Shown: positions 33,857 through 59,365 of the stretch, piece by piece
How the letters are laid out: each line of letters opens with the position of its first letter
How positions within the stretch are numbered: the first letter of the stretch is position 1
Assembly: GCF_018555685.1 (NCBI RefSeq)
Contig: NZ_JAFLWW010000004.1
Coordinates: forward strand, 62,001 to 126,000
DNA: 64,000 nt
Direction of reading: 5' to 3'
Source of the DNA: Aminobacter anthyllidis
GTDB lineage: Bacteria > Pseudomonadota > Alphaproteobacteria > Rhizobiales > Rhizobiaceae
Translations under genes and position numbers: made by a program
Notes under the pieces: generated by a model
What the model saw: only the letters and a program-made list of their open reading frames with translations
Databases searched by the model: none
What the model was told of the DNA's origin: nothing

Positions 33857-33868
33857 GGAGGCACAGCT

Positions 33869-34372: not shown

Positions 34373-34381
34373 GAGGAAGCA

Positions 34382-39058: not shown

Positions 39059-39858
<800 letters not shown>

Positions 39859-39862
<4 letters not shown>

Positions 39863-40782: not shown

Positions 40783-40809
40783 TCAGCCGCCCTCTCAAAC
40801 AGTATGGGT

Positions 40810-40838
40810 GGCCGGCGAGCAGTCCTGCCTCGCCGGCC
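40810..40838 (-). terminator. Intercistronic hairpin below substrate-binding protein gene
   Basis: A perfect 10-bp GC-rich stem (GGCCGGCGAG / CTCGCCGGCC) lies between the binding-protein gene and the permease gene. Such hairpins often protect or partially terminate transcripts so that the binding protein is made in excess. Confidence 0.6.
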
Positions 40839-40845
40839 TTGTCGA

Positions 40846-43665: not shown

Positions 43666-44747
43666 GTGTCGCGCGCGGCGAAGCGCAGCGTGACCTGTTC
43701 GCCGACGTCGAGCGGGTTGCGGCCGCCGACGTCGACGACGATGCGGTCGCCGCTGCCGAGCTTGACGGCGAGCTGGTTGGCGCTGCCCTGGTAGATCGAG
43801 TTGATCACGGCGCCGGCGAGCGCGTTCTCGCCGTGGCCGGCCTCCCCTGCCCCTTGCTGATGGCCTGTGCCGGCCTCATGCCTGAGCGTGCGGATGTTCT
43901 CCGGCCGGATCATGATCCTGACGTCGGTGCCCTTGGCCAGGCCCGCCGGGCCTGTCGTGCCGAGGCTGCCGCAAGGCGTGTCGACCTTGTAGCTGTCCTG
44001 GCCGAGCGCCTCGGCGATCTTGCCCGATATGGTGTTGGAGCGGCCGATGAAGCCGGCAACAGATTGCGAGGTGGGCCGTTCATAGATCTCGCGCGGCGAG
44101 CCGAACTGCGAAATCGTGCCAGCACTCATCACCACGATCTTGTCCGACATGACCATCGCCTCGGCCTGGTCATGGGTGACGTAGATGCTGGTGATGCCGA
44201 CGCGCTGCTGCAGGTCGCGGATGAAGAAGCGCATCTCGTCGCGCAAGGTTGCGTCGAGATTGGCCAGCGGCTCGTCGAGCAGCAGCACCGAGGGTTCGAT
44301 GACAAGCGCACGGGCCAGCGCCACGCGCTGCTGCTGGCCTCCGGAAAGCTCGCGCGGATAGCGCTTGTCGTAGCCTTCGAGGCGCACCATGGCGAGAACG
44401 TCGGCGATGCGCCGCTGGCGGTTGGGCACCGAGACCTTGCGCACTTCAAGCCCGAAGCTGAGGTTTTCGGCAACCGTCATGTGTGGAAACAGCGCGTAGG
44501 ACTGGAACACCATGCCGATGTCGCGCTGCTCGGGCAATGCGCGCGTCACGTCGCGGTCGCCGAACAGGATGCGGCCGCTGTCTGGTTGCTCGAAGCCGGC
44601 GATGCAGCGCAGCGTCGTCGTCTTGCCGCAGCCGCTTGGCCCCAGCAGGGAAACGAACTCGCCCTGGCCGATCGGGATCGATATGTCCTTCAGGATGTGC
44701 AGGTTGCCATACCGCTTGTTGATACGGTCGATGGTCAGTGCGGTCAT
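43647..44747 (-). CDS. Polyamine-type ABC transporter, ATP-binding protein (PotA-like)
   Basis: The 366-residue protein has Walker A GPSGCGKTTTL (about 36-46), Q-loop GMVFQSYALFPHM, signature [15 protein letters not shown], Walker B VLLLDEPLANLD and switch His in YVTHDQAEAM. It ends in a C-terminal TOBE domain (about 280-360) with IMIRPENIRTL and DIGG-like VVDVGGRNPLD. This is the CUT1/PotA type used for polyamine, iron or phosphonate uptake. An extra Gly/His/Glu-rich insertion lies near residue 290. It follows the binding-protein gene after a strong hairpin. Confidence 0.9.
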   Translation of the reverse strand: MTALTIDRINKRYGNLHILKDISIPIGQGEFVSLLGPSGCGKTTTLRCIAGFEQPDSGRILFGDRDVTRALPEQRDIGMVFQSYALFPHMTVAENLSFGLEVRKVSVPNRQRRIADVLAMVRLEGYDKRYPRELSGGQQQRVALARALVIEPSVLLLDEPLANLDATLRDEMRFFIRDLQQRVGITSIYVTHDQAEAMVMSDKIVVMSAGTISQFGSPREIYERPTSQSVAGFIGRSNTISGKIAEALGQDSYKVDTPCGSLGTTGPAGLAKGTDVRIMIRPENIRTLRHEAGTGHQQGAGEAGHGENALAGAVINSIYQGSANQLAVKLGSGDRIVVDVGGRNPLDVGEQVTLRFAARDTWLLAS

Positions 44748-44767
44748 CCGATGTCCTCGCGGTTCGC

Positions 44768-44795
44768 GGCCGGGAGGTGGGGGCCCCTCCCGGCC
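44768..44795 (-). terminator. Intercistronic hairpin below PotD-like gene
   Basis: A perfect 10-bp stem (GGCCGGGAGG / CCTCCCGGCC) with an 8-nt loop lies between the binding-protein and ATPase genes. Its position is equivalent to the hairpin in the other importer operon, suggesting the same role in raising binding-protein expression. Confidence 0.6.
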
Positions 44796-44822
44796 ATTAC
44801 GTCGTTGCCGGTCGTGGCGTGG

Positions 44823-45857
44823 CTACGCCATCTCCCGGTTCCAGCGGTCGGCGATTTCGGCCGCCCTGTCGACGTAGCTGTCCCAGTCGTAGCTCTTGAT
44901 CTCGGCCATGCGCGGGCCGACGATCGGGGTGCGTGCCTTCATCGCGTCGTCCACCACGGACTCGCTGTTGCTGGGCGAGGTGTAGAAGGCCTTGGCCATG
45001 TCCTGCTGGACCTTGGCGTCTAGGATGTAGTTCAGGTAGGCGTGCGCGGCGTCCTTCTCGGCGCCGCTGGCAACCAGGTTGAACGATTGCTCGAAGGCCA
45101 GCACGCCCTCCTTGGGAGCAACGATCGCAACCGGCGCGCCCTTGTCCTGCAGCGTCATGATCTCGGTCCAGTCGACCGGGGCGATGATGGCGTCGCCGCG
45201 GATCAGGGCGGTCGCCACCTCGCCGCTCCACGAGGCCTGCGTGAAGGGCAGCAGTTCCTTGATCTTGGCAAAGGCGGTGTCGAAATCGTCGGGTCCGCTG
45301 CCAAACAGCTCGGCGACCAGGCGCAGGAACAGCACCGCGCCGGTGTTGCCGATCTGGTAGAGGCCGGTCTTGCCCTTGAACTCGGGGTTTTCCCAGAGGT
45401 CGTGCCAGGAGGTCGGCGCGGTCTTCACCAGGTCGGTGCGGTAGGCCAGGCCGATAGGCGAAACGATGGCGCGGATGCCCTTGGCGTCCTTGTTGATGAA
45501 CTGCGGGAATGTCTTCGCCGCGTTCGGCACCTTGGCGAGGTCGAAGGGCTCGAAGAAACCCTCGGCGCGCAGCACCGCGGCGATATTCTCGTTGCCCATG
45601 AAGATGCTGTAGGGAGAGCGACCGCCGCCGGCTCGGATCTTGGCGACGAAGTCCTTGCCAAGCCCGACGTCGAGCTGTGGCTGGATGCCGGTGGCCGAGG
45701 TGAGGCCAGGCAGCAGCTTCTCTTCCCAGAATTTGGCCCACAGCCCGCCATAGGTCGGAACGACCAGTGGGGACTGCGCCGCGGCAAGCCGCGGCAGGGT
45801 CATCGAGGCAATAGCCGTCGTCATACCGACGGCGAATTCACGCCTTGTCAGCTTCAT
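44823..45857 (-). CDS. Polyamine-type ABC transporter, substrate-binding protein
   Basis: ATG 45857, preceded by GGGAGAT, gives 344 residues; the longer upstream frame is not needed. The N-terminus LTRREFAVGMTTAIASMTLP is a twin-arginine signal peptide, cleaved near AAAQ (about 27). The mature domain is of the PotD/extracellular binding-protein 1 type: VPTYGGLWAKFWEEKLLPGL, the IGLAYRTDLV and PTSWHDLWENPEFKGKTGLY region, and WSGEVATALIRGDAI. It would bind the imported cation in the periplasm. Divergent from a FadR/GntR regulator gene. Confidence 0.88.
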   Translation of the reverse strand: MKLTRREFAVGMTTAIASMTLPRLAAAQSPLVVPTYGGLWAKFWEEKLLPGLTSATGIQPQLDVGLGKDFVAKIRAGGGRSPYSIFMGNENIAAVLRAEGFFEPFDLAKVPNAAKTFPQFINKDAKGIRAIVSPIGLAYRTDLVKTAPTSWHDLWENPEFKGKTGLYQIGNTGAVLFLRLVAELFGSGPDDFDTAFAKIKELLPFTQASWSGEVATALIRGDAIIAPVDWTEIMTLQDKGAPVAIVAPKEGVLAFEQSFNLVASGAEKDAAHAYLNYILDAKVQQDMAKAFYTSPSNSESVVDDAMKARTPIVGPRMAEIKSYDWDSYVDRAAEIADRWNREMA

Positions 45858-45967
45858 CGGAATTATCTCCCATGTTCCCACTGAAGTTCTTATTGTGGCT
45901 TGCGTCGCGGGTCGAAAGCGCAGCCCTATTGGATCGAAGGCTTGCATTTTCCGATCAGGCGGTCAAC

Positions 45968-46000
45968 AATTTAGATATTGTAATATTGAAATAATAAGAA
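45968..46000. promoter_or_regulatory. AT-rich operator candidate between importer and GntR gene
   Basis: A dense AT stretch in an otherwise GC-rich region contains GATATTG and AATATTGAAATAAT. It lies between the divergent PotD-like and FadR-like genes, where an autoregulatory GntR operator is expected. The motif partly recurs near 41841 and near 51155. Confidence 0.4.
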
Positions 46001-46027
46001 GCGGCCAACGAGGGAGAGTTTAAGGGC

Positions 46028-46786
46028 ATGGAGGACGCCAAGCAGGCAGTCCAGGCGACCAAGAGCCTGGCACATCAGATCGCGACGGCGCTCCAGCAGG
46101 AGATCGTGCAGGGTACGCTCAGTGTCGAGGCGCGGCTGCCGTCCGAAGCCGAGATCGCACAGCGCTTCGGCGTTTCGCAGCCGACCGTGCGCGAGGCGCT
46201 CAAGATCCTGGCTGCGAAGAAGCTTGTGCGTTCCAAGCGTGGTCCCAATGGCGGCGTCTTCGTCAACGCGCCGTCGCTGACCGCCGCCAGCCAGATGCTG
46301 CAGGAGATGACGACCTGGTTCGTCGGCCTGGGCGTGTTCGGCTTGAGCGAGATTGTTGAGGCGCGCCTGCTGCTGGGCCGCACCTGCGTCCAGCTGGCCG
46401 CTGAGCGAGCCACGCCGGAGGACCTTGAGTCGATCGAAGCGACGCTGGAGGCCTTCGAGCGCGACGACATTTCCGATGAGGAATTTTGCCGGCTCGATGT
46501 CGCCTTTCACCACGCCATCGCCCAGGCGACCGGCAACAATGAACTGCGTTTCATCATGCTTGTCGTCAACGATTCGCTGATCCCGGCGACCAACATGATC
46601 TCCTTCCGCTTCCGCGAGCGTGGCCGTGTGGTGTCGCTGCACGCCGACATTCTGGAAGCACTGCGTGCCCGCGACGCCTCGGCCGCCACCGCGGCTTTCG
46701 AGGAACTCATCGCCTATCAGTCGAGCGTCTACGAAAAGGCGCTGTCAGCTCGCCAGGATGTCGCCGCCCAGAGGCAGGAAGCCTGA
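46028..46786 (+). CDS. FadR/GntR family transcriptional regulator
   Basis: The 252-residue protein has an N-terminal winged helix (ARLPSEAEIAQRFGVSQPTV followed by REALKILAAKKLV, about 36-68) and a C-terminal all-helical FCD ligand domain (about 95-235). The FCD metal/ligand residues are visible in LDVAFHHAIAQATGN and the later SLHADILEAL. FCD regulators usually respond to organic acids or acyl-CoA. It is divergent from the polyamine-type importer and overlaps the CoA ligase gene by one base, so it probably controls both. Confidence 0.9.
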   Translation: MEDAKQAVQATKSLAHQIATALQQEIVQGTLSVEARLPSEAEIAQRFGVSQPTVREALKILAAKKLVRSKRGPNGGVFVNAPSLTAASQMLQEMTTWFVGLGVFGLSEIVEARLLLGRTCVQLAAERATPEDLESIEATLEAFERDDISDEEFCRLDVAFHHAIAQATGNNELRFIMLVVNDSLIPATNMISFRFRERGRVVSLHADILEALRARDASAATAAFEELIAYQSSVYEKALSARQDVAAQRQEA

Positions 46787-48483
46787 TGAGCCAACTCGTG
46801 GCGCCTGGGCAGAAGCTGATCGAAGAGCAGCTGCCGGACGGGCGCCGCGTCTATCGCAGCGCGATCCCCCTGCCCGGCAATCTGCCCGACATTCTTGCAC
46901 GGCTTGTCAAATGGGCGGTCGAGCAGCCGGACAAGGTGCTGCTGTCCGAACCCGGCGAAGGCGCCAGGCGCTCCATCAGCTATGGCGAGGCACTTGCCCG
47001 CGCTCGTGCCATGCGAGGGCTGCTGGTGGGCCTCTACGGCCTTTCCAAGGGCGATTGCGTCGCGACTTTGGGTCCGGCGGGCGTCGACGCGCTGGTGCTC
47101 AAGCTCGCCTGCCTGTCGGGCGGGCTCGTTCATGCCGCCCTGCCGCCCTTCCCTTTCCGCGACGGCGTCGAAGGTGAAGCGACAAGGCCATTTCTTGACG
47201 CCGCCAAACCCAAGCTGATTGTCGCGCCGGCGGGCCATCCGGCCATCGAAGGCATGGGGGCGATTTCGCTAATCGATCTGGCGCGCGAAAGCACTGGCGA
47301 AGCGGCGCTCGATGCCGACGAACAAACCGCGCCCGATGATTGGGCGGCGATCTTCTTCACGTCCGGCAGCACCGGAGCCCCCAAGGGCGTGCCGATCACG
47401 CGCGGCATGATTTCGTCCAACCAGGGCGCCATCGCCGCGATGTGGCCGTTCGTGGCCGAAACCCCGCCCGTCCTTGTCGACTGGCTGCCCTGGCATCACG
47501 TCTTCGGCGGCCTCGACAACATCTTCAAGGTGATCTGGAACGGCGGCGCCATGCACGTCGACTCGGCGCCCACTCCCTCGACCATGGACGCAAGCATAGT
47601 GCTCATGGCGGAGGTCTCCCCGACCATGCATATCGCCGTGCCGCTCGGCTTGAAACTGCTGCTTGACCGTCTGGAAAACGATGAGGTGGCAGCCGCAGCC
47701 TTCACGCGCAATCTGCGCGCCATCTTCTTTGCCGGCGCCGGCATCGATGCCGGGCTCTGGCGCCGGCTGGCCAGCTTCCGCGACAGGCATGGCGATTTCC
47801 AGATCCTGTCCGGTTATGGCGCAACCGAGGCCGCCTCGACGATCACGCTGTCGCCAGCGCCGCTGGAGCGCCCAGGCGAACTCGGTCACCCCCTGCCCGG
47901 CCATCGCATCGCGCTGGTCGACGTCGACGGCCGAAGCGAATTGCGCGTCTCAGGGCCTAACATCGCGCCCTGCTACCTGATCGAAGGCCGCAGGGTCGAA
48001 TTGCCGATGGACGAGTTGGGCTTCTACCGCACTGGCGACGCTGCGGTCATTCGCCCGCGCTCGGACGGCATTCCAGTGTTCGGTTTCGATGGCCGGCTTG
48101 CCGAGGACTTCAAGCTGTCGAGCGGGGTCAAGGTCCGCACCGGCCCGCTGCGCGCCGGCCTGATGGCGCAGTGCGCACCGCTCGCCGACGACATCGTCAT
48201 TTCGGGTGAGGACCGCGACCGGCTCGTGGCGCTGGTTTTTCCGTCGGCGGCAGGCAGGGATCGCATCGACGAGATCAGCGCGCGCATCGCTGGCTGGAAC
48301 GCCGCCAATTCAGGCGGCTCGACAACGATCGCTCGCTTCGGTCTGGCGACGACACCGGCCGACCGCGCCAAGGGCGAACTGTCGGACAAGGGGCAGATCG
48401 TGCAGTCGCGCTATCTGCGCAACAACGCCGAACTGTTCGAGGCACTGCAGGCAGGTGGAGGTCAGGCGCCCAAGAGCGCCTGA
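46786..48483 (+). CDS. AMP-dependent acyl-CoA ligase (feruloyl-CoA synthase-like)
   Basis: The 565-residue ligase has the P-loop TSGSTGAPKGVPIT (about 192-205), the LPWHHVFGG motif, YGATEAAS (about 344-351) and GDAAVI. In place of the usual catalytic-lysine region it has AKGELSDKGQ near residue 527. The middle (TMDASIVLMAEVSPTMHIAV) resembles feruloyl-CoA synthases and related aryl-CoA ligases. It activates a carboxylic acid, probably aromatic, to its CoA ester with ATP. It overlaps the regulator gene (TGATG). The adjacent hydratase gene, which faces it, would use the product if it is a 2-enoyl-CoA. Confidence 0.85.
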   Translation: MSQLVAPGQKLIEEQLPDGRRVYRSAIPLPGNLPDILARLVKWAVEQPDKVLLSEPGEGARRSISYGEALARARAMRGLLVGLYGLSKGDCVATLGPAGVDALVLKLACLSGGLVHAALPPFPFRDGVEGEATRPFLDAAKPKLIVAPAGHPAIEGMGAISLIDLARESTGEAALDADEQTAPDDWAAIFFTSGSTGAPKGVPITRGMISSNQGAIAAMWPFVAETPPVLVDWLPWHHVFGGLDNIFKVIWNGGAMHVDSAPTPSTMDASIVLMAEVSPTMHIAVPLGLKLLLDRLENDEVAAAAFTRNLRAIFFAGAGIDAGLWRRLASFRDRHGDFQILSGYGATEAASTITLSPAPLERPGELGHPLPGHRIALVDVDGRSELRVSGPNIAPCYLIEGRRVELPMDELGFYRTGDAAVIRPRSDGIPVFGFDGRLAEDFKLSSGVKVRTGPLRAGLMAQCAPLADDIVISGEDRDRLVALVFPSAAGRDRIDEISARIAGWNAANSGGSTTIARFGLATTPADRAKGELSDKGQIVQSRYLRNNAELFEALQAGGGQAPKSA

Positions 48484-48495
48484 CGCACTTGACGC

Positions 48496-49305
48496 TCAGT
48501 CGAGATCGCGGAACGGCTTCTCGCGGATGTCGAGGAACTCCTTCAGCGAATGCTCCTTGAGCAGCCGCATCCAGTAACGTCCTTCTTCAGAGCCGTGCAG
48601 GATCGCCGTGGTCTCGCGATTATAAGTCCACGAGCTTTCCAAGCCCGCGGTCTGCTGCTGGTGGTTGAGCGCTGCCTTGGCGAACTTGATCGAAGCGCCC
48701 GGCATGCGAGCGCATTTGCGCGCCAGCTTCTCGGCTTCCGCCTTCAGCTGGTCGCGCGGCACCGCCTTGTTGACGAGATGGATGCGCGCCGCCTCGCGGC
48801 CATCGATCAGGTCGCCGGTGTACATCAGGTGGCGTGCGTGGATCATCGGCACCGTCCAGGGCAGCATCAGCGTCGGCGGCGCCGAGACGTGGCGCACTTC
48901 AGGTTCGCCCAGCATCGCGTCTTCGGCGGCGATCGTCATGTCGCAGCACATCATCAATTCCAGCCCGCCGGCGAGCGCAAAGCCGTTGACGGCGGCAATG
49001 ATCGGGATCGGCGCTTCGCGAATGAACCTCATGCGGCGCATGTTGGCGCCGATGTCCTCGCGCCAGGCTTCGGTGTCCATCTCGAAATCCTCGCCGCCGA
49101 GATCGAAGCCGGCGGTGAAGGCGCGCCCCGCGCCGGTGATGATGACCGCGCGGATGTCGGGATCCTTTATCGCGCGATCGATCGCCGCCTCGAGCGCGTC
49201 GCCGAGCTCCTGGTTCATGGCGTTCATCTTGTCGGGACGGTTGAGCGTCAGGGTAACGAACGCGTCCTCGGCGTCCTTTTCCCAGAGTACGACTTCGCTG
49301 CTCAT
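48496..49305 (-). CDS. Enoyl-CoA hydratase/isomerase family protein
   Basis: The 269-residue protein is a crotonase. The oxyanion-hole segments are AFTAGFDLGGEDFE (about 70-83) and NGFALAGGLELMMCCDMTIA (about 117-136), and the second catalytic acid region is LGEPEVRHVSAP. Residue pattern at the first Glu position is atypical, so hydratase, hydrolase or isomerase activity cannot be separated. It acts on a 2-enoyl or aromatic acyl-CoA. It is 11 bp downstream of the AcuI-like reductase gene and convergent with the CoA ligase gene. Confidence 0.87.
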   Translation of the reverse strand: MSSEVVLWEKDAEDAFVTLTLNRPDKMNAMNQELGDALEAAIDRAIKDPDIRAVIITGAGRAFTAGFDLGGEDFEMDTEAWREDIGANMRRMRFIREAPIPIIAAVNGFALAGGLELMMCCDMTIAAEDAMLGEPEVRHVSAPPTLMLPWTVPMIHARHLMYTGDLIDGREAARIHLVNKAVPRDQLKAEAEKLARKCARMPGASIKFAKAALNHQQQTAGLESSWTYNRETTAILHGSEEGRYWMRLLKEHSLKEFLDIREKPFRDLD

Positions 49306-49316
49306 GGTCTCTCCCC

Positions 49317-50309
49317 TTACGCGATTTCGATGACGATGCGGCCGCGCACCTGGCCGGCCACGATGCGGTTGGCGAGCTCGGGCAGTTCCGACATCTTGTG
49401 AACTTCGGTCATTGTCGAAAGCTTAGCGCGGTCGAGATGTTCGGCCAGCGTCTGCCAGGCCTTCTGGCGCCTGGCGAGCGGCGCGAAGACGGAATCGACG
49501 CCGATCAGTGCCACGCTGCGCAGGATGTGCGGCATCACGGTTCCGGGGAGGTTGTGGCCCCCGGCCAGGCCGCAGGCAGCGACAGCACCGCCATAGACGG
49601 TCTGGGCCAGCGCATTGGCAAGCGTCGTCGAACCGACCGAGTCCACAGCCCCGCTCCAGCGTTCCTTTTGCAGCGGCTTGACCTCGGCGGCGAGCTCGGC
49701 CCGGTCGAGGAAGGACGTTGCGCCCAGTGACCGCAGATAGTCGTGCGTCTCAGTGCGGCCGGTCGAGGCAACGACAGTGTAGCCCTTGGAGGACAGCAGG
49801 CTGACCGCCGTCGAGCCAACGCCGCCAGCCGCGCCGGTCACCAGTACCTCGCCCTTTCCGGGCTGGATGCTGCCCCAGGCCTCGAGCGCGTCGACGCAGA
49901 GGGCGGCAGTGTAGCCCGCAGTGCCGATCGCCATCGCCTGCTGCATGGAAAACGCGTCCGGCAATCGGATCAGCCATTCCGGCTTCAGCCGCTGGAAGCG
50001 CGTGTAGGCGCCCCACTCGGTCTCAGACATGCCCCAGCCATTGGCCACGACCTTGTCGCCCACTTTCCACGCCGGCGAGCGCGACTCGACGACTGTGCCG
50101 GCGATATCGATGCCGGCGATCATCGGCAGGCGCCGCGCTATGCGGCCCTTGCCCGAAACGGAGAGCCCGTCCTTGTAGTTCAGGCTCGAATAGGCGACCT
50201 CGATCAGCACGTCATGATCCGGCAGGTCGGCCTTGGTGATCTCGCGGAAGCCGGCGCGCGGCTTGCCATCGACATCTTCCAGCATCAACGCCGTAAAAGT
50301 CTCGCTCAT
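49317..50309 (-). CDS. AcuI/YhdH-type quinone oxidoreductase (acryloyl-CoA reductase-like)
   Basis: The 330-residue medium-chain dehydrogenase/reductase lacks zinc ligands and has the YhdH/AcuI signatures SSLNYKDGLSVSGKGRI (about 41-57), MIAGIDIAGTVVES, and the NADPH-binding loop GAAGGVGSTAVSLL. AcuI enzymes reduce acryloyl-CoA to propionyl-CoA using NADPH and detoxify reactive enoyl-CoA intermediates. Here it lies between a GntR gene and an enoyl-CoA hydratase gene, consistent with this role in an acyl-CoA pathway. Confidence 0.87.
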   Translation of the reverse strand: MSETFTALMLEDVDGKPRAGFREITKADLPDHDVLIEVAYSSLNYKDGLSVSGKGRIARRLPMIAGIDIAGTVVESRSPAWKVGDKVVANGWGMSETEWGAYTRFQRLKPEWLIRLPDAFSMQQAMAIGTAGYTAALCVDALEAWGSIQPGKGEVLVTGAAGGVGSTAVSLLSSKGYTVVASTGRTETHDYLRSLGATSFLDRAELAAEVKPLQKERWSGAVDSVGSTTLANALAQTVYGGAVAACGLAGGHNLPGTVMPHILRSVALIGVDSVFAPLARRQKAWQTLAEHLDRAKLSTMTEVHKMSELPELANRIVAGQVRGRIVIEIA

Positions 50310-50338
50310 GAAAGTCTCCAGTCAGGGGTAAGAGTTCG

Positions 50339-51088
50339 TCAGCCGCGCTTGGCTTCGCGTTCGGCGCGTCGTGCCAGGCTGACGGCATAGCTGTCGCGCA
50401 CATAGGCCAGGAGTTCTCCGAGCACGGCGGTCGCTGCCGCTGCGTCGCGCGCGTCAAGTGCGGCGACGAGGCGCTCGTGGAAATTGGCGACCGTGCTGCG
50501 CTCGCGTACGTGCGACACGATCATGTTGGTGATCGGCATGAAGGCCTCGACCACCGTGTACATCATCAGGCTGAGCGGGCCGTTGCCCGCGGCCTTGACC
50601 ACGGCGCGATGGAAACGCACGTCGGAGGCACAAAAATCCTCGTCGCTGAGCAGTTTGGAGCGCTGCACTGCGATCTCGGCGCGCATCGCCGTCAGGTCGG
50701 CTTCGCTGCGGCGTTCGCAGGCAAGCCGGGCGCAGATCGCTTCGGTTTCCAGCCGCGCACTGATGATCTCGTCGATGTCGAAGGCGCCGACGCCAACCAG
50801 AAGAGTGGCAGCCCCGGTGATCGCCGACGACAGGCCTTCAGGGTCGGGGCGGCTGACGAAGGTGCCGCCGGTCGGTCCGCGCTGCGAGCGGATGAGGTTT
50901 TGGGCCGCGAGCCGTTTCAGCGCCTCGCGCACGGTCGGGCGCGAGATGCCAAAGCTCTTGGCCAGGTCTTCTTCGGTCGGCAGGCGCTCGTCGATCTGCA
51001 GGCGGCCGTCGAGAATGGCCGCGCGGATCTTGTCGGCGACCTGCCGGGCAACGCCTGTGCGCACCACGTCCTGATATTCGATCGGCAT
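50339..51088 (-). CDS. FadR/GntR family transcriptional regulator
   Basis: The frame is open to 51148, but GGAGGA five bases before ATG 51088 favours a 249-residue protein starting MPIEYQDVV. It has a winged helix (ERLPTEEDLAKSFGISRPTV, then REALKRLAAQNLI) and an FCD domain with SDVRFHRAVVKAAGN and NFHERLVAAL. It is a paralogue of the regulator at 46 kb. It is 29 bp upstream of the AcuI-like gene on the same strand and divergent from the FAD dehydrogenase/ferredoxin oxidoreductase genes, so it probably represses both units. Confidence 0.88.
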   Translation of the reverse strand: MPIEYQDVVRTGVARQVADKIRAAILDGRLQIDERLPTEEDLAKSFGISRPTVREALKRLAAQNLIRSQRGPTGGTFVSRPDPEGLSSAITGAATLLVGVGAFDIDEIISARLETEAICARLACERRSEADLTAMRAEIAVQRSKLLSDEDFCASDVRFHRAVVKAAGNGPLSLMMYTVVEAFMPITNMIVSHVRERSTVANFHERLVAALDARDAAAATAVLGELLAYVRDSYAVSLARRAEREAKRG

Positions 51089-51231
51089 TCGTCCTCCGTC
51101 GGCGCGACCACTATCGGCGCTCGTCCGTTTCGACATGGAGATAAACAATATAGGTTTGACAAATATTGCAAGCGAAATAAGCTGATCCGAGACAGCGCCC
51201 GGAAAGGCTTCCTCCGGGCCATCCAGGCATC

Positions 51232-52635
51232 ATGGCGCGACCGACCGATCAGGTTCTATCCTCCCTTCAGACGCGGCTCGACAAGGCCGCGATCCTGGCA
51301 GGTGATGCCATCGATCCGCGCTACAGCGACGATCTTTCCGGCGTGCCAGGTGCGAGGCCCGAACTTGTTCTGCGGCCGCGCAACACCCACGAAGTCGCCG
51401 AGATCCTCAACGCCTGCAACGCCGCCCGCCTGCCGCTGGTCGTCCAGGGCGGCCGTACCGGCCTGTCAGGCGGGGCGAGGGTGCTGGCCGGCGAGGCGGT
51501 ACTTTCGCTCGAACGCATGACCGCCCTTGGAGACGTCGAGCCGACCGCCAGCACCATCATCGCCGAGGCCGGCGTGCCCTTGCAGATCGTGCAGGAAAAA
51601 GCCGATGCGGCGGGGCTGGTTTTCGGCGTCGACATAGGCGCGCGCGGCACCGCGACCATCGGCGGCAACATCGCCACCAATGCCGGCGGCATCCGCGTAC
51701 TGCGCTATGGCAATTTTCGCGCCCAGGTGCTGGGGCTCGAAGCGGTGCTGGCGGACGGCACAGTGCTGTCCTCGCTCAAGGGTCTCGCCAAGGACAATTC
51801 CGGCTACGATCTGAGCCAGCTTTTCATCGGCAGCGAAGGCACGCTCGGCGTCGTCACCCGCGCCTGCCTCAAGCTTCACCCCAAGCCGGTCACCCAGTCG
51901 GCAGCCTTCTGTTCGCTGCCCTCGCTCGACGCTGCCTTTGGCCTGCTCAAATTCCTGCGCGGCCGCCTCGGCAACCTGCTGTCCGGTTTCGAGGTGATCC
52001 TGGCGCCGCTGATGGGCGACATGGTGGCGGCACTCGGCTTCACCTCGCCGGTCGCACTGTCGTCGCCGGTCTATGTGCTGGCCGACATCCAGGGCATGAC
52101 TCCGGGCGCCGACGAGGAGGTTTTTGTCGAGACACTGTCTCAGGCAATCGAGAACGGGCTGGTCGAGGACGTCGTGGTCTCGCAGTCGGAACGCGAGTTC
52201 CATGCGCTGTGGACGCTGCGCGACGACGTCAACCGCTTCCTCTTTGCCGAGGACGCGATGCTCAGCCTCGACGTCAGCCTGCCGCTGCCCAGGATGGGCG
52301 CCTTCCTCGCCATGGCGCGGGCGGCCCAGGGGCGTGCCGACCCGGCGGCGCAGGACTATGTCTTCGGCCATCTCGGCGACGGCAACCTGCACTACGTCGT
52401 CCGCACCGACCGGCCCGACGAGGTCGCCAGTGCCGTGTTCGACTGCGTCGCGAAGAACGGCGGCTCGATCTCGGCCGAACATGGCATCGGGCTCGACAAG
52501 AAGGCCTATCTGCACCTGACGCGCGACCCTGCCGAACTGGCTGCGATGCGCCGGCTCAAGGCAGCGCTCGACCCGCGCAACATCCTCAATCCGGGCCGTA
52601 TCTTCGACATGCCGCCTGCCCCGCTCAACGTCTGA
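51232..52635 (+). CDS. FAD-linked 2-hydroxyacid dehydrogenase (GlcD/D-2-hydroxyglutarate dehydrogenase type)
   Basis: The 467-residue protein has a PCMH/FAD_binding_4 domain with PLVVQGGRTGLSGGARVL (about 64-81) and TIGGNIATNAGGIRVLRYGN, and a FAD-oxidase_C domain with the substrate/metal motifs FGHLGDGNLHYVV and SAEHGIGLDKKAYL. It oxidises a D-2-hydroxyacid to a 2-oxoacid, passing electrons to an acceptor protein or quinone. The gene just downstream encodes a 2-oxoacid oxidoreductase, so product and substrate fit. The ten-base gap suggests one operon. Confidence 0.9.
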   Translation: MARPTDQVLSSLQTRLDKAAILAGDAIDPRYSDDLSGVPGARPELVLRPRNTHEVAEILNACNAARLPLVVQGGRTGLSGGARVLAGEAVLSLERMTALGDVEPTASTIIAEAGVPLQIVQEKADAAGLVFGVDIGARGTATIGGNIATNAGGIRVLRYGNFRAQVLGLEAVLADGTVLSSLKGLAKDNSGYDLSQLFIGSEGTLGVVTRACLKLHPKPVTQSAAFCSLPSLDAAFGLLKFLRGRLGNLLSGFEVILAPLMGDMVAALGFTSPVALSSPVYVLADIQGMTPGADEEVFVETLSQAIENGLVEDVVVSQSEREFHALWTLRDDVNRFLFAEDAMLSLDVSLPLPRMGAFLAMARAAQGRADPAAQDYVFGHLGDGNLHYVVRTDRPDEVASAVFDCVAKNGGSISAEHGIGLDKKAYLHLTRDPAELAAMRRLKAALDPRNILNPGRIFDMPPAPLNV

Positions 52636-52644
52636 GAATCCATC

Positions 52645-55600
52645 ATGACTGCAGTGAAGTCCCCCGATAATGGCGCCCAACAGGTCGACATGCCCTCAGC
52701 GCTGGACGAGCGCTACACGCTCGAGCGCGGCCGCATCCTGGTGTCGGGCACGCAGGCGCTGGTGCGCCTGCCGATGGTCCAGCGCCAGCGCGACCTTGCG
52801 GCCGGGCTCAATACTGCGGGTTACGTGTCGGGCTATCGCGGCTCTCCCTTGGCCGGCTTCGATCGCGAGATGGGCAGTGCCAAGAAATATCTCAAGGCCA
52901 GCCATATCGTTTTCCAGCCTGGCCTCAACGAGGACATGGCGGCGACCGCCGTGTGGGGCACCCAGCAGACCGGCATGTTCCCCGGCTCGCGTTACGACGG
53001 CGTGTTTTCGATGTGGTATGGCAAGGGTCCCGGCGTCGACCGCACCATGGATGTCATCCGCCACGCCAATGCGGTCGGCACCAGCCAGCATGGTGGCGTG
53101 TTGCTGCTCGTTGGTGACGACCACGGCGCGGTCTCCTCCACCTTGCCGCACCAGAGCGAGCACAATCTGATTTCGGCCATGGTGCCGCTGCTGTCGCCGG
53201 CGGGTGTTGGCGAATACATTGACTTCGGCCTGCTCGGCTGGGCGATGAGCCGCTATTCCGGCGCCTGGGTCGGCTTCAAGTGCCAGACCGAAACAGTCGA
53301 ATGCTCCGCGACCGTCGATCTCGATCCAAGCCGGCTGGAGATCGTCACCCCTGCCCTGCCGCTTCCCGCCGACGGGCTTTCGATGCGCTGGCCCGACGGG
53401 CAGCAGGCGATGGAGCGCCGGCTCGAGACCAAGCTTGCGGCGGTGCTTGCCTTCGCCCGGGCCAACCATCTCGACAGGCAGGTCTGGCCCTCCCCCAAGG
53501 CCAGGCTCGGTATTGTCTCGACTGGAAAGTCATGGCTCGATCTCAAGGGCGCTCTGTCGCTGCTCGGCATCGACGAGGCCCGCGCCGCCGAACTCGGCAT
53601 CCGCCTCTACAAGGTCGGCATGGTTTGGCCGCTGGAGCCGGAGGGCTTGCGTGAGTTCGCCGACGGGCTTGAACAGGTATTCGTCGTTGAGGAAAAGCGT
53701 CCCGTCATCGAAGAGCAGATCAAGTCGCTTCTCTTCAACCTGCCAGGCGACCGCCGGCCACAGGTGTTCGGCAAGTCTGGCCCGGACGGGTCCCCTCTCC
53801 TGCCCTCGATCGGCGAAATCGGCGCGCTTTCAGTAGCGCGCGCCATCCTGCAATGGCTCGGCACGAAAGATGCCGGCCTCGCCGCGCGTGCTGTACAGCT
53901 GTCAACGGTCGGGCTCCCCTCCCCTGCCGAACCTGGGTTGCTCAACCGTGAGCCCTATTTCTGCTCGGGCTGCCCGCACTCGACCTCGACAGTCGTGCCC
54001 AAGGGCAGCCGCGCCTCCACCGGAATCGGCTGCCACATGATGGTGATCGGCATGGAGCGCGACACCTCGACCTTCACCCAGATGGGCGGCGAAGGCGGCT
54101 CGTGGATCGGCCTGTCGCCCTTCACCGACGAGAAGCACATCTTCGTCAATATGGGCGACGGCACCTATTTCCATTCCGGCCTGCTGGCCATCCGCGCCGG
54201 TATCGCTGCCAAGGTCAACGCCACCTACAAGATCCTCTACAACGACGCTGTCGCCATGACCGGTGGCCAGCGCCATGATGGTGAATTGTCGGTGCCCTCC
54301 ATCGTCGGCCAGGTTCTCGCCGAAGGCGCAAAGCAGGTGGTCGTCGTCTCCGAACGCCCTCACCTGCTGGCCGGCCAGCTGCCGCGCTCGGTGAATGTGC
54401 ACCATCGCGACGAGCTCGATCAGGTCCAGCGCGAACTGCGCGAAGTCGAGGGCGTAACGGTCCTGGTCTACGATCAGGTCTGCGCCGCCGAAAAACGCCG
54501 CCGGCGCAAGCGCGGCACTTACCCCGTCTCGCCCAAGCGCGCCTTCATCAACGAACTGGTCTGCGAAGGCTGCGGCGACTGCTCGGCCGTGTCGAACTGC
54601 ATCTCGATCGAACCGCGCGAGACCGAGTTCGGCCGCAAGCGCGCCATCAACCAGTCGAGCTGCAACACCGACCTGTCCTGCATCAAGGGTTTTTGCCCGA
54701 GCTTCGTCACCGTCGAAGGTGGGCGCTTGCGCAAGCCACAGGCCAAGGCGGTCGGCGGCGTGGATGCCGGCCTTGCCGAGCCAGCTCGCCCTGCCCTTGG
54801 AAATGAGCCCTACAGCGTGTTGCTCACCGGCATCGGTGGCACGGGTGTCATCACCGTAAGTGCCATCCTGTCACAAGCTGCACATCTCGACGGGCTGTCG
54901 TTGGTCACGCTCGACCAGACCGGTCTCGCCCAGAAGAACGGCGCAGTGGTTTCGCATATCCGGCTTGCGCGGGAACCCGAGATGCTGAACGCCGCTCGGA
55001 TCGGACCCGGCGAGGCCGATCTCGTGCTGGGTTTCGACCTCGTGGTTGCCGCGTCCCAGAATGTCATCGCCACCTTCGGCAAGGACCGGACCAGGACAGT
55101 GGTCGACGATCATTTCGCGCCGACAGCCTCTTTCGTGAAAGACACGGCGATTGACTTCCGCGAAGGCGCCACCATGCGCCGGTTGCGCAATGCCGGCGGC
55201 GCGGACGCATTGACCACCTTGCCAGCCATGAAGCTTGCGACAGCACTGTTCGGCGACGCGATTGCCGCCAACATGTTCCTGCTCGGCCATGCCTGGCAGA
55301 AGGGGCTCGTGCCGATCAGCCGCGAGGCGATCGAAAAGGCCATCGCCCTCAACGGCGCCGGCATCGCGATGAACCGTGCCGCCTTCGCCTGGGGAAGACG
55401 CTCGGCCGAGGATATGGACTTCGTCAGCCGCCAGGCGGGCAGCGTTTCGGCGCCTGCGCCCGCTTTGACGCTGGACGAGATCGTGAGGCATCGCGCCGAC
55501 TTCCTCACCGGCTATCAGAATGCTGTCTATGCCGAGCGCTACCGAAAGCTCGTCGATAGCGCGCGTGAAGCCGAGGCGAGGGTCGCACCGGGGCAGGAGG

Positions 55601-56127
55601 CATTCAGCCGTGCCGTCGCCAGCGCCGCCTTCAAGCTGATGGCCTACAAGGATGAGTACGAAGTGGCGAGGCTGCATCGCGATCCGGCGTTCAGGCGAAA
55701 GCTTGCCGAACAGTTCGAAGGAGACTTCAAGCTCCAGTACAATCTGGCGCCACCGATGCTGACTCGGACCGATCCGCGTACCGGCCATCCCGCCAAGATC
55801 GCGATCGCCAGCCGCTGGATCGAGCCAGCCTTCGCCGTGCTTGCCCGGCTCAAAGGCCTGCGCGGCACGCGCTTCGATCCGTTCGGCCGCACCGCGGAGC
55901 GCAAGATGGAGCGGCGGCTGGCCGCTGATTACTTCACGCTCGTCGAGGAGCTTGCCATCCGACTGTCGGCTTCGAACCTGGCGATGGCCACTGAACTTGC
56001 CAGCCTGGCCGAAAGTGTCCGCGGCTACGGCCATGTAAAGCTTGCCGCCATCGAGCGCTACGAACAGCGCAAGTCGGAATTGCTCACCGCCTTGTCGAGA
56101 GCCACGCCAGTGGGGCAGGCGGCCTGA
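52645..56127 (+). CDS. Indolepyruvate ferredoxin oxidoreductase family protein (fused alpha/beta)
   Basis: The 1,160-residue protein fuses the subunits that are separate as IorA/IorB in archaea. The N-terminal pyrimidine-binding part (about 20-400) is followed by the thiamine diphosphate domain with FCSGCPHSTSTV (about 440), GGEGGSWIG and MGDGTYFHSGLLAIR. A cysteine cluster CEGCGDCSAVSNC (about 639-651) plus CNTDLSCIKGFC holds iron-sulfur centres. The gamma domain starts with LLTGIGGTGVITVSAILSQA (about 725), and a C-terminal DUF6537 region closes the protein. It converts an aryl or branched 2-oxoacid and CoA to acyl-CoA and CO2. It probably uses the product of the preceding dehydrogenase. 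Confidence 0.92.
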   Translation: MTAVKSPDNGAQQVDMPSALDERYTLERGRILVSGTQALVRLPMVQRQRDLAAGLNTAGYVSGYRGSPLAGFDREMGSAKKYLKASHIVFQPGLNEDMAATAVWGTQQTGMFPGSRYDGVFSMWYGKGPGVDRTMDVIRHANAVGTSQHGGVLLLVGDDHGAVSSTLPHQSEHNLISAMVPLLSPAGVGEYIDFGLLGWAMSRYSGAWVGFKCQTETVECSATVDLDPSRLEIVTPALPLPADGLSMRWPDGQQAMERRLETKLAAVLAFARANHLDRQVWPSPKARLGIVSTGKSWLDLKGALSLLGIDEARAAELGIRLYKVGMVWPLEPEGLREFADGLEQVFVVEEKRPVIEEQIKSLLFNLPGDRRPQVFGKSGPDGSPLLPSIGEIGALSVARAILQWLGTKDAGLAARAVQLSTVGLPSPAEPGLLNREPYFCSGCPHSTSTVVPKGSRASTGIGCHMMVIGMERDTSTFTQMGGEGGSWIGLSPFTDEKHIFVNMGDGTYFHSGLLAIRAGIAAKVNATYKILYNDAVAMTGGQRHDGELSVPSIVGQVLAEGAKQVVVVSERPHLLAGQLPRSVNVHHRDELDQVQRELREVEGVTVLVYDQVCAAEKRRRRKRGTYPVSPKRAFINELVCEGCGDCSAVSNCISIEPRETEFGRKRAINQSSCNTDLSCIKGFCPSFVTVEGGRLRKPQAKAVGGVDAGLAEPARPALGNEPYSVLLTGIGGTGVITVSAILSQAAHLDGLSLVTLDQTGLAQKNGAVVSHIRLAREPEMLNAARIGPGEADLVLGFDLVVAASQNVIATFGKDRTRTVVDDHFAPTASFVKDTAIDFREGATMRRLRNAGGADALTTLPAMKLATALFGDAIAANMFLLGHAWQKGLVPISREAIEKAIALNGAGIAMNRAAFAWGRRSAEDMDFVSRQAGSVSAPAPALTLDEIVRHRADFLTGYQNAVYAERYRKLVDSAREAEARVAPGQEAFSRAVASAAFKLMAYKDEYEVARLHRDPAFRRKLAEQFEGDFKLQYNLAPPMLTRTDPRTGHPAKIAIASRWIEPAFAVLARLKGLRGTRFDPFGRTAERKMERRLAADYFTLVEELAIRLSASNLAMATELASLAESVRGYGHVKLAAIERYEQRKSELLTALSRATPVGQAA

Positions 56128-56481: not shown

Positions 56482-56845
56482 GACCTGACGACGGCTCCGA
56501 AACGTCCGCCGTCGCCGGCCGTTTCGCTTCCGTCACAATGGTTAATTTCCGTTAACTATAAACAAGTTGACTCGACTCGGCCGCTCCCGCACCCTTGTTA
56601 CGGTAAATGGTCGTAATTCGATGCGTCCAGCGTAACCGCCTCATCAATCCGTTATCCACGCTCTGTCACGTTAAAATGTGCGAAGGCGTAACCCGGATTC
56701 GGATTCTGCAGCGAATCGGCGCATAAATCTTAACGAAGCCTGACTGCGTGTCGCTCATGCGTCCGCCTGATGGCGAGAAGGGACTAAAGACTTGGTTGGG
56801 GCAGTTCAAGCACGGGCGGAAAACGCGAGCGAAGAGGCCGAGGTC
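56482..56845 (+). promoter_or_regulatory. repA upstream control region with DnaA-box-like site
   Basis: No gene is supported in these 364 bases. Base composition shifts toward AT near 56535-56620. A short inverted repeat GTTAA-N6-TTAAC lies at about 56540-56555. TTATCCACG at 56652-56660 differs from the DnaA box TTATCCACA at one position. The region precedes repA and follows parS, so it should hold the repABC promoter(s); an exact start point cannot be assigned. Confidence 0.5.
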
Positions 56846-58039
56846 ATGGCGACTGATCGTGCTATTGCGCGCGACGCCGAGATGTTGTCGGCGCAATTGC
56901 AGGCGATGCGCGACCGGTTGTTTTCGCCGACGTCGAAGAAGGCCTTGCGCAAGTTCTCGAGCGGCGAAGCGGCTCGTCTGATTGGCGTCACCGACGGTTA
57001 TCTGCGCCAGCTCTCCATAGCAGGCGAGGGGCCGCAGCCCGAGACCGGGGCAGGGGGGCGCCGCTACTACGCGCTCGACGACATCAACGGACTGCGCCGG
57101 CACCTTGCCGAGCAGAACCCGACCAAGGCGCGCCACTACCTGCCGCGCCGCGATGCAGCGCGCGGCGAGCATATGCAGGTCATCGCCGTGACCAACTTCA
57201 AGGGCGGCTCGGGCAAGACCACGACCAGCACCCATCTCGCCCAGCATCTGGCACTCGCCGGTTATCGCGTACTAGCCATCGACCTCGATCCGCAGGCCTC
57301 GATGTCGGCGCTGTTCGGCTATCAGCCCGAACTCGACTTGAACGGCAATGACACGCTGTACGGCGCGATCCGCTACGACGAGGAGCGCCGGCCGCTTAGC
57401 GACATCATCCGCCGCACCTATTTCGACGGGCTCGACTTCGTGCCTGGCAATCTCGAGCTGCAGGAGTTTGAGCACACCACGCCGCAGATGCTGGCGGCAC
57501 GCCAGGCAGGCGACAGCAAGGCGATGTTTTTCGCCCGGGTGCAGGAGGCGCTGCGGACAGTGGCCGACGACTACGACATCGTCGTCATGGACTGCCCGCC
57601 ACAGCTTGGCTTCCTGACGCTGTCGGCACTGTGTGCGGCGACGTCGGTGCTTGTGACGATCCATCCGCAGATGCTCGATGTCGCGTCGATGAGCCAGTTC
57701 CTGTTCATGACCGCCGACCTTTTGTCGGTGGTGCGCGAGGCGGGCGGTGAGCTTAACTTCGATTTCATGCGCTACTTGATCACGCGCTACGAGCCCAATG
57801 ATGGCCCCCAGACACAGATAGTCGGCTTCCTGCGCTCGCTGTTTGGCGATCGCGTGCTGACCGCGCCTCTGGTCAAGTCGACGGCGTTCTCCGATGCCGG
57901 CCTGACCAAACAGACGCTTTACGAAGTGTCGCGCGAGAGCTTCAGCCGCGCCACCTATGACCGCGCCATGGAGTCGTTGACAGCTGTCAACGGCGAGATC
58001 GAGGGCCTGATGCTCAAGGCCTGGAACCGGGCAGCGTGA
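56846..58039 (+). CDS. repA: Plasmid partitioning protein RepA (ParA family)
   Basis: ATG 56846, preceded by GAGGCCGAGG, gives 397 residues, the usual RepA length; the frame is open to TTG 56792. An N-terminal helix-turn-helix (SGEAARLIGVTDGYLRQL, about 38-55) precedes the ParA ATPase with deviant Walker A FKGGSGKTTTS (about 118-128), the DLDPQASM strand and Walker B-like VVMDCPPQLGFLT. RepA with RepB segregates the replicon and represses the operon. A perfect parS site is embedded at 57976-57991 in codons for SLTAVN. Translationally adjacent to repB. Confidence 0.95.
   Translation: MATDRAIARDAEMLSAQLQAMRDRLFSPTSKKALRKFSSGEAARLIGVTDGYLRQLSIAGEGPQPETGAGGRRYYALDDINGLRRHLAEQNPTKARHYLPRRDAARGEHMQVIAVTNFKGGSGKTTTSTHLAQHLALAGYRVLAIDLDPQASMSALFGYQPELDLNGNDTLYGAIRYDEERRPLSDIIRRTYFDGLDFVPGNLELQEFEHTTPQMLAARQAGDSKAMFFARVQEALRTVADDYDIVVMDCPPQLGFLTLSALCAATSVLVTIHPQMLDVASMSQFLFMTADLLSVVREAGGELNFDFMRYLITRYEPNDGPQTQIVGFLRSLFGDRVLTAPLVKSTAFSDAGLTKQTLYEVSRESFSRATYDRAMESLTAVNGEIEGLMLKAWNRAA
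57976..57991. other. parS partition site, copy 2 (inside repA)
   Basis: GTTGACAGCTGTCAAC recurs here, identical in all 16 bases to the copy at 56466. It is within the last 25 codons of repA. In repABC replicons parS copies can lie within or beside the operon, and such a position lets RepB binding influence repBC transcription as well as partition. Confidence 0.85.
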
Positions 58040-58050
58040 GGGAGGCTGGC

Positions 58051-59106
58051 ATGGCATTGAACCGCAAGGACCAGCTCAAGGCGTTGTTCGGCACCGTTGA
58101 ACCAGCACCGGTGCCCGCAGCTCCGGCCGACAAGGCACCGGAAACGAAATCGGCCGAGCCGGACGCGGCACGCCCGCGCAGCGCTTCGGGTGCCGTCAAG
58201 GCGATGGGGCTGTCGCTCGGGGGGCTGTCCAAGGAGGTCGAGGAGGCGCGCAGGCTGAAGGAAAGCCTGGATGCCTCCGAACGCGTGTCCCAGGTGGATG
58301 CGACGCTCATCGAGGCGTCGTTTGTTGCCGACCGGCTCGACAATGGCGCGCAGGATGCGGATTTCGACGCACTGGTCAGCAGCATCGAGACGTCAGGCCA
58401 GCAGGTTCCCGTGCTGCTCAGGCCGCATCCCGACAAGCCGGGGCGCTACCAGACGGCCTATGGCCATCGTCGCGTCCGCGCGGCAGGCAAGCTTGGCATT
58501 CCCGTCCTGGCGATCGTCCGGCCGCTGTCCGATGTCGAGCTGGTGCTTGCCCAGGGCAAGGAAAACAGCGAGCGGCGCGATCTGTCCTTCATCGAGCGGG
58601 CGCTGTTCGCGCACGAATTGATCGGCCGAGGCTTCGAGCGTGGCCTGGTGCAGGATGCGTTGTCACTGCACAAGGCCGAGATGACACGCTTCCTGCAGGT
58701 CGCGGATGCCGTGCCGGAACATATCGTGCGCGCCATAGGCGCCGCGCCCAAGGTCGGTCGGCCGCGCTGGATGGCGCTCGCCGAGCTGCTGAAGGGCGAG
58801 GCGGCGCGCGTCAAGGCCGACGACGAGACCACCAGCGAACGGTTTCGCGCAGCGACGAGCGACGAGCGCTTCAACCTTTTGTTCACGCGGCTGCAGCGCA
58901 GGGGCCAGCCGGTTGTCGGCGCCGCTCGCGAAATCCGTGACGGCAAGGGCAGGGCGGTGGCGAATCTGATTGTTACCAAGGGCAAGGCCAGGGTCGATTT
59001 TCTGGAAAAGATTGCCGATGGCTTCGAGGATTTCCTCGGCGAGGAACTGCCCAGGCTGTTGGAAAGGTTCAAACAGGAGCGCGGCCCAGCGGCCGGGCAA
59101 GACTAG
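58051..59106 (+). CDS. repB: Plasmid partitioning protein RepB (ParB family)
   Basis: ATG 58051 is preceded by GGAGG at the right distance and gives 351 residues; an earlier GTG at 58036 overlaps the repA stop. The protein has the RepB N-terminal arm with MALNRKDQLKALFG, an alanine/proline linker, the ParB nuclease-like domain (GQQVPVLLRPHPDKPGRY, TAYGHRRVRAAGKLGIPVLA, QGKENSERRDLSFIERALF) and an HTH region (LVQDALSLHKAEMTRFLQVA, about 208-227) that recognises parS. It spreads from parS and stimulates RepA ATPase. Confidence 0.94.
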   Translation: MALNRKDQLKALFGTVEPAPVPAAPADKAPETKSAEPDAARPRSASGAVKAMGLSLGGLSKEVEEARRLKESLDASERVSQVDATLIEASFVADRLDNGAQDADFDALVSSIETSGQQVPVLLRPHPDKPGRYQTAYGHRRVRAAGKLGIPVLAIVRPLSDVELVLAQGKENSERRDLSFIERALFAHELIGRGFERGLVQDALSLHKAEMTRFLQVADAVPEHIVRAIGAAPKVGRPRWMALAELLKGEAARVKADDETTSERFRAATSDERFNLLFTRLQRRGQPVVGAAREIRDGKGRAVANLIVTKGKARVDFLEKIADGFEDFLGEELPRLLERFKQERGPAAGQD

Positions 59107-59225
59107 ATTTGTTCACGGCTAGCGAGACAGGCGCATGCTTCACCGCAGCGCCGCCCGCGAAACGGGGAGCGTAAAGCGTCCGTGCCAATGTGTAGAGGAT
59201 CGGAATAAGAAGGATAACCGGCAAG

Positions 59226-59310
59226 AAAAAGGCCCCCGAAACGTCGCCATTCCGGAAGCCCTCATCAATGTAGCAATTGTGAGAGAATCATTTCCGGGCT
59301 GACTTGTCAA
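59226..59310 (-). ncRNA. repABC antisense RNA (inc-alpha ctRNA) with promoter
   Basis: In the repB-repC gap, on the minus strand, TTGACA (complement of 59305-59310) and a -10-like TTCTCT 17 bp further (59287-59282) precede about 50 bases that end in a strong terminator. Its stem GGCTTCCGGAA / TTTCGGGGGCC includes G-U pairs and is followed by TTTTT (complement of 59226-59230). Position, size and structure match the ctRNA that controls repC translation and incompatibility in repABC plasmids. The mature transcript is expected at about 59226-59276. Confidence 0.75.
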
Positions 59311-59365
59311 CCACTGGACGCGTTCCGGAACGCCTTTGGCTTGCCTCCAAGTGAGGTAAACGAAG

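Follow-up and report, generated by a model that had tools for sequence, protein, structure and literature searches.

The subject of this report is a plasmid-borne block of seven genes at positions 46028 to 56127 of a 64,000-nucleotide stretch of DNA (the window) from a contig of the soil bacterium Aminobacter anthyllidis. Its gene content is tentatively read as the side-chain part of a pathway which breaks down pyrimidine nucleosides or bases with a 3-amino-3-carboxypropyl (acp) group, such as acp3U and m1acp3-pseudouridine, and this is regarded as quite possible, short of probable. Taken further, and offered with a little more reserve, the block may belong to a previously undescribed rhizobial regulon consuming the acp side chain of modified RNA nucleosides by means of a ferredoxin-dependent 2-oxoacid oxidoreductase and a crotonase which would eject uracil from a propionyl-CoA thioester to leave acryloyl-CoA. 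The observations behind this proposal are the gene content, a separate clade of the oxidoreductase, the conserved linkage of the genes and the distribution of two putative operators; from them we infer the substrate and every reaction, the elimination step in particular.

A conserved block of catabolic genes

All seven genes are uninterrupted open reading frames, and they fit the families named in an earlier note on this DNA, which had listed two related FCD/GntR regulators together with a CoA ligase, a crotonase, an AcuI-like reductase, a GlcD-like dehydrogenase and a fused indolepyruvate oxidoreductase (IOR). Regulator 1 (46028-46786, plus strand) overlaps the start of an AMP-forming acyl-CoA ligase of the AMP-binding family (46786-48483, plus strand) and diverges from a PotABCD-type ATP-binding cassette (ABC) importer on the minus strand (41951-45857), which consists of permeases at 41951-42766 and 42763-43665, an ATPase at 43647-44747 and a binding protein at 44823-45857. 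The crotonase-fold hydratase/lyase (ECH_1; 48496-49305), the acrylyl-CoA reductase of the AcuI/YhdH type (49317-50309) and regulator 2 (50339-51088) lie on the minus strand, separated by 11 and 29 bases. They share a promoter region divergently with two plus-strand genes, glcD for a flavoenzyme resembling GlcD and D-2-hydroxyacid dehydrogenases (FAD_binding_4/FAD-oxidase_C; 51232-52635) and ior for the fused 2-oxoacid:ferredoxin oxidoreductase of the indolepyruvate type (52645-56127). For regulator 2 a TTG start at 51148 had been listed; the ATG at 51088 is preferred because it fits the 750-base length of annotated homologues. Over 237 residues regulators 1 and 2 share 42% identity.

Family models support the core of this assignment. 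The IOR scored 1634.1 bits against NCBIfam NF009589 (cut-off 816) and the reductase 413.7 bits against TIGR02823 (cut-off 297.25), the reductase just missing the equivalog model NF051456 (426.9 bits, cut-off 440). With 256.1 bits the GlcD-like enzyme stayed below the cut-off of 567.9 for TIGR00387, and an assignment as glycolate oxidase GlcD was rejected on this ground; its best solved matches are the unnamed oxidoreductase 3pm9 and the D-2-hydroxyglutarate dehydrogenase 6lpn.

The 14.2-kb segment from 41951 to 56127 is covered to at least 80% in nine PLSDB records, all from Aminobacter, at 86.7-87.9% identity, two of the records being one strain, and the gene order of the block recurs on the chromosome of Mesorhizobium sp. 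L-8-3. These recurrences put the gene order far beyond chance: the block is a single conserved system which Aminobacter plasmids carry whole and other Rhizobiales have in reassembled form. The window's arrangement, variant A, is also found in the family genomes G802 (without GlcD), G840, and G106 and G858, neither of which has regulator 2. A variant B, found in Rhizobium, Neorhizobium and others, contains AcuI, regulator 2, GlcD and IOR as in the window, with tabulated exceptions (identity to the window about 68-78% for AcuI and about 70-75% for IOR), together with homologues of the crotonase and the importer and with a 2-oxoglutarate oxygenase. In most variant B clusters an ADP-forming acyl-CoA synthetase replaces the AMP-forming ligase, and PsuG, PsuK and often a nucleoside hydrolase are present in addition; none of these four was found in the stretch read of the Rhizobium lusitanum and Rhizobium bangladeshense clusters.

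The clusters were compiled in a table of 25 rows, using per-gene identity thresholds of our own setting; the rows are not independent, as several come from one genus (the row labelled G051 is locus L004). Twenty rows are full clusters, and the remaining five are three split modules, one Terrarubrum locus and one Cereibacter locus. All 20 full clusters contain the crotonase and a homologue of the PotABCD-type binding protein with at least 39% identity; AcuI is present in 19, the twentieth being cut by a contig end, and IOR, GlcD and regulator 2 in 18 each. Less constant are the oxygenase (13), PsuK (11), PsuG (10), the RihA-like nucleoside hydrolase of variant B (8) and an aminotransferase (3). 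The ADP-forming synthetase occurs in 11 and the AMP-forming ligase in seven of the full clusters, two having neither and none both. Among 247 genomes of the family the ligase is held by 11 (E <= 1e-100) and regulator 2 by 16 (E <= 1e-85).

One exchange concerns the oxidoreductase. The two full clusters without IOR, G795 and G821, are the only rows of the 25 with a thiamine-diphosphate enzyme of 543-553 residues, and the one from G795 resembles acetolactate synthase and 2-oxoacid decarboxylase models, below all cut-offs shown, and solved structures of the same kinds. As IOR is thus exchanged for a thiamine-diphosphate 2-oxoacid enzyme in clusters with the same GlcD, the logic of a hydroxyacid turned into an oxoacid is supported. 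Supported, too, is the earlier note's description of one catabolic unit leading from hydroxyacid over oxoacid to acyl-CoA, equipped with an importer and a pair of FCD regulators of its own. Two clusters have IOR without a ligase and two a ligase with the decarboxylase-type enzyme, which suggests that both routes yield the same acyl-CoA. A thiamine-diphosphate gene of the Cereibacter locus gave a weak, partial match to that of G795 and G821, and the Terrarubrum locus combines binding protein, oxygenase, PsuK, PsuG, crotonase and synthetase without IOR, GlcD or AcuI.

The oxidoreductase clade and the putative operators

In a tree of 43 IOR sequences, in which two genes are present twice, the 20 cluster-borne sequences form one clade with a support of 1.0 and the other 23 lie outside; the branching of G106 and G858 inside the clade has a support of 0.088. 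The Aminobacter anthyllidis genome has a second fused IOR (G000:C5:179839-183267; loci L002 and L062) which is 50% identical and falls outside the clade. No core genes were found around the four outside IORs whose surroundings were read (G143, G031, G086 and this second copy), nor around a second IOR of G051 which was not in the tree sample (loci L057, L058, L060, L062 and L061).

These data bear on the substrate which the earlier note had suggested, aryl-lactate or aryl-pyruvate, with the CoA ligase and the crotonase serving hydroxycinnamates. The name of the IOR family and the preference of such enzymes for aryl-pyruvates speak for it, as does the distant resemblance of the ligase to proteins annotated as feruloyl-CoA synthase (about 30-35% identity). 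The ligase reached only 336.7 bits against NF009232 (cut-off 777), a model named acyl-CoA synthetase and tied to feruloyl-CoA synthase, and the crotonase 131.8 bits against the p-hydroxycinnamoyl-CoA hydratase/lyase model NF006588 (cut-off 276). AcuI would be left without a role, the genome has a separate IOR of another clade, and no aromatic-ring enzymes were found among the annotated genes of the related clusters compared; the genes travelling with the block are those of pyrimidine-nucleoside enzymes and acrylyl-CoA chemistry. With family cut-offs and neighbours both failing to support an aryl-lactate or ferulate pathway, the suggestion was rejected as very improbable.

Two putative operators were recognised. 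The one of regulator 1, GATATTGTAATATTGAAATA, lies at 45974-45993 and is matched exactly once in each of 9 genomes out of 13 searched. That of regulator 2 is the 16-bp sequence ATAGGTTTGACAAATA in the glcD promoter (51150-51165, plus strand). The motif ATARGTTTGACAAATA was seen in the gap beside regulator 2 in all scanned variant A and variant B loci which have this regulator (with two mismatches in G036) and in a Cereibacter plasmid. A genome-wide search allowing one mismatch gave 18 sites in 15 of 20 genomes, the reversed control giving none. Fifteen of the 18 sites are beside regulator 2 and the other three are upstream of a crotonase, at distances of about 110, 110 and 440 bases, in G028, G127 and G074, which are the genomes with a variant A crotonase module away from regulator 2; the motif had been derived from the regulator-2 gaps and not from these three places. 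Conversely, G106 and G858, which have no regulator 2, show sites like the regulator-1 operator, with 3 and 4 mismatches in 20 positions, in both divergent promoters, that of the importer and that of glcD-acuI. As the pattern for the regulator-1 genome search was written to include sites of this type, only the per-genome uniqueness in 9 of 13 genomes is informative there. Operator copies thus join the modules in both directions, a distribution which suggests that both halves of the block are within reach of either regulator and would argue for one pathway.

On the Cereibacter plasmid (strain Cereibacter sphaeroides KD131; L015:8750-11143) regulator 2 and GlcD are accompanied by a perfect operator copy, without IOR, AcuI or crotonase, and the locus adjoins genes annotated as sugar kinase, aldolase and CoA-transferase.

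Breakdown of acp nucleosides as the proposed function

Two sets of pyrimidine-nucleoside enzymes join the core, one made up of PsuK, PsuG and the RihA-like hydrolase and the other a string of nucleoside hydrolase, TetR regulator and aminotransferase, and this is counted in favour of an acp nucleoside. The string continues the variant A cluster in G802, G840 and Mesorhizobium L-8-3 (where the locus ends within the hydrolase), and in G028 it adjoins a split module with ligase and crotonase. Among family models the hydrolase of G840 comes nearest to the uridine-preferring UriH and to RihA, in both cases below the cut-off, and among solved structures to a cytidine/uridine hydrolase; the aminotransferase is HisC-like, again below the cut-off. 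The aminotransferase occurs in seven of the 247 family genomes, and all seven are among the 11 with the CoA ligase (P = 3e-11 on the assumption of independent genomes, which does not hold for related ones). In the window genome the aminotransferase match had counted two stop codons; direct reading shows an uninterrupted frame of 365 codons. An FAD amine-oxidase/ThiO-like gene diverges from the hydrolase string (L092:12035-13357) in four of nine loci compared, that of the window genome included; its family was tested on the copy from G051. In the variant B cluster of Rhizobium johnstonii the hydrolase is RihA-like, below the cut-off, PsuG matches the solved PsuG 4gij with 3e-94, and the closest matches of the oxygenase are ethylene-forming enzyme and thymine dioxygenase.

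According to PMC6895100, acp3U occurs in tRNA and m1acp3-pseudouridine in eukaryotic 18S rRNA, both carrying the 3-amino-3-carboxypropyl side chain. An oxoacid fed by an aminotransferase as well as a hydroxyacid dehydrogenase and ending in acrylyl-CoA chemistry fits a 4-substituted 2-amino- or 2-hydroxybutyrate, which the acp side chain is. Adding the uridine-type nucleosidase to the amino acid aminotransferase, the D-hydroxy acid route and the acyl-CoA and acrylyl-CoA end makes acp nucleosides the best match. Import would be by the PotABCD-type and the amino-acid type ABC systems, and ribose would be removed by the uridine-type nucleoside hydrolase or, in a pseudouridine variant, by kinase and PsuG. 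The HisC-like aminotransferase would then turn the amino into an oxo group, or GlcD would form the same 2-oxo acid from the D-hydroxy analogue. Oxidative decarboxylation by IOR would yield 3-(uracil-3-yl)propionyl-CoA, from which the crotonase would release uracil by beta-elimination, and AcuI would reduce the resulting acryloyl-CoA to propionyl-CoA, the CoA ligase activating the same acid whenever it enters free of CoA. Both glutamates which we take from the rat hydratase to be catalytic in the enoyl-CoA hydratase fold are invariant in the crotonases (22 of 22 aligned sequences), as elimination or hydration would need. As a C-nucleoside with an N-methyl group, m1acp3-pseudouridine would call for PsuK, PsuG and a demethylating oxygenase, which are the extra genes of variant B. 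Thymine dioxygenases catalyse N-demethylation. Passages of PMC4787775 gave no confirmation of this activity.

In the chief competing explanation two separate acids would converge on 3-hydroxypropionyl-CoA under one regulon: pyrimidine nucleosides would be degraded over uracil to 3-hydroxypropionate, which the CoA ligase activates, and 2,4-dihydroxybutyrate or homoserine would give 2-oxo-4-hydroxybutyrate, which IOR converts to 3-hydroxypropionyl-CoA; the crotonase would dehydrate this and AcuI make propionyl-CoA. This accounts for the CoA ligase, and ligase, crotonase and AcuI are explained as well as by acp breakdown. It also agrees with the second-best solved match of the crotonase, the 3-hydroxypropionyl-CoA dehydratase 5zai, and with the likeness of the variant B synthetase to models of 4-hydroxyacid CoA ligase (412 bits) and 3-hydroxyacid CoA ligase (344 bits), each with a cut-off of 1300, although it also scored 394 bits against an acetate-CoA ligase model (cut-off 1200). 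Cereibacter is known to assimilate 3-hydroxypropionate reductively with AcuI (PMC12632250). Genes for uracil-ring degradation were not seen as recurrent members of the clusters annotated or tabulated, the thymine-dioxygenase-like oxygenase is left unexplained, and the presence of hydrolase and aminotransferase in one string points to one molecule bearing both features. On this evidence convergence of two substrates is considered unlikely, though a serious contender.

A different class of substrates would be uridine derivatives whose ring bears a hydroxyacid, for example carboxyhydroxymethyl-uridine, which GlcD would oxidise to a ring-glyoxylate and IOR to a ring-carbonyl-CoA. This accounts for GlcD and IOR and for the nucleosidases which accompany the core, and leaves the crotonase and AcuI, present in 20 and 19 of the 20 full clusters, without a clear job, which makes such substrates very doubtful. 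Two further candidates were considered and rejected, willardiine-type uracilyl-alanines, which would yield uracilyl-acetyl-CoA with AcuI idle, and mugineic-acid-like substrates, thought of for the polyamine-like importer, which leave the nucleosidases unexplained.

Several points weigh against acp nucleosides. We know of no D-hydroxy analogue of them, while GlcD is in 18 of the 20 clusters and the aminotransferase beside three. The CoA ligase is superfluous where IOR is present. Nucleoside enzymes are missing from the stretch read in R. lusitanum and R. bangladeshense, the G106 and G858 clusters contain neither nucleosidase nor aminotransferase, and nucleoside hydrolases are common, with five matches in the window genome. 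There the hydrolase and aminotransferase genes (G000:C25:361211-363889) share the contig with the block at a distance of about 243 kb, and a search of the 20 kb around their string showed neither operator. The Cereibacter plasmid, with regulator 2, GlcD and operator lacking the other core genes, indicates that regulator 2 may sense something more general.

Attempts to narrow the substrate from other loci gave little. Crotonase relatives outside the order Rhizobiales were found in seven other genomes of 385, four with a ligase-crotonase pair without other core genes and three with the crotonase without ligase. Ten neighbours of the four pairs belong by Pfam to hydantoinases, TRAP, MFS and oligopeptide transport, peptidase and CoA-transferase, two having no family, and these ten genes did not narrow the substrate. 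Guessed old locus-tag prefixes of the R. johnstonii pRL12 cluster were unmatched in PMC3333776 and PMC11103875, which proves little about its phenotypes.

Genomic surroundings and known systems

Left of the PotABCD-type importer is the amino-acid type ABC importer on the minus strand (39059-41712), by Pfam an ATPase (39059-39862), a permease (39859-40782) and a family-3 binding protein (40846-41712) whose nearest solved structures are amino-acid binding proteins. With homologues of 82-99% identity it adjoins the block in Aminobacter, Mesorhizobium L-8-3, G802 and G840 and the split module in G028; it was not found beside the G106 or G858 clusters. Further left are a SapC-family protein gene (37396-38193) and, at 20558-34909, an open reading frame of 4213 residues followed by three others, a layout matched on the Aminobacter plasmid pMET1 by a 12.5-kb gene annotated as hypothetical protein and three annotated tail fiber proteins; the SapC gene thus lies between this tail-fibre region and the amino-acid importer. 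Directly to the right of the block are repABC-type plasmid replication genes (56792-60577), named by their match to annotated Aminobacter plasmids, and repA follows ior in six of seven Aminobacter loci compared (the exception is L008). The contig from which the window comes is 670,596 bases long and belongs to a genome of 6.7 Mb.

All enzyme families in the block are already known. Fused indolepyruvate:ferredoxin oxidoreductase serves a phenylacetate route from aryl-pyruvates. The window enzyme is of the same family and presumably catalyses the same step from 2-oxoacid to acyl-CoA; it differs in belonging to a separate clade tied to GlcD, crotonase and AcuI and, in relatives, to nucleoside enzymes. 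With the reductive 3-hydroxypropionate assimilation of Cereibacter sphaeroides, which comprises CoA activation, dehydration and AcuI (PMC12632250), the block could share the tail from acryloyl-CoA to propionyl-CoA formed by ligase, crotonase and AcuI, to which it adds importer, GlcD, IOR and two FCD regulators, and its relatives add nucleosidases and aminotransferase. With pseudouridine catabolism variant B shares PsuG and the PsuK-like kinase, which are here embedded in an acyl-CoA pathway with an oxygenase, whereas psuG and psuK were not found in the window block; elsewhere in the window genome there is one PsuG-like protein (56%). A precedent for dedicated catabolism of modified free nucleosides is the 2-oxoglutarate-dependent breakdown of 2'-O-methyl nucleosides by FJS/PHYHD1, which differs by its phytanoyl-CoA-dioxygenase-related oxygenase and by the absence of acyl-CoA steps from the abstract (PMC12709175). 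A gene combination or pathway of the present kind was not found in listings of the open-access literature, subscription papers being outside the search.

The breakdown of hypermodified nucleosides released by RNA turnover is largely an open question. That pyrimidine nucleoside hydrolases might serve this purpose was raised in 2010 in the Discussion of PMC2898832, with no pathway offered there. acp3U is described as widely conserved in bacterial and eukaryotic tRNA (PMC6895100) and as linked to RNA glycosylation (PMC11603334). The defined gene set, the two putative operators and the named strains make the question directly testable, and the pathway would also provide enzymes acting on acp3U.

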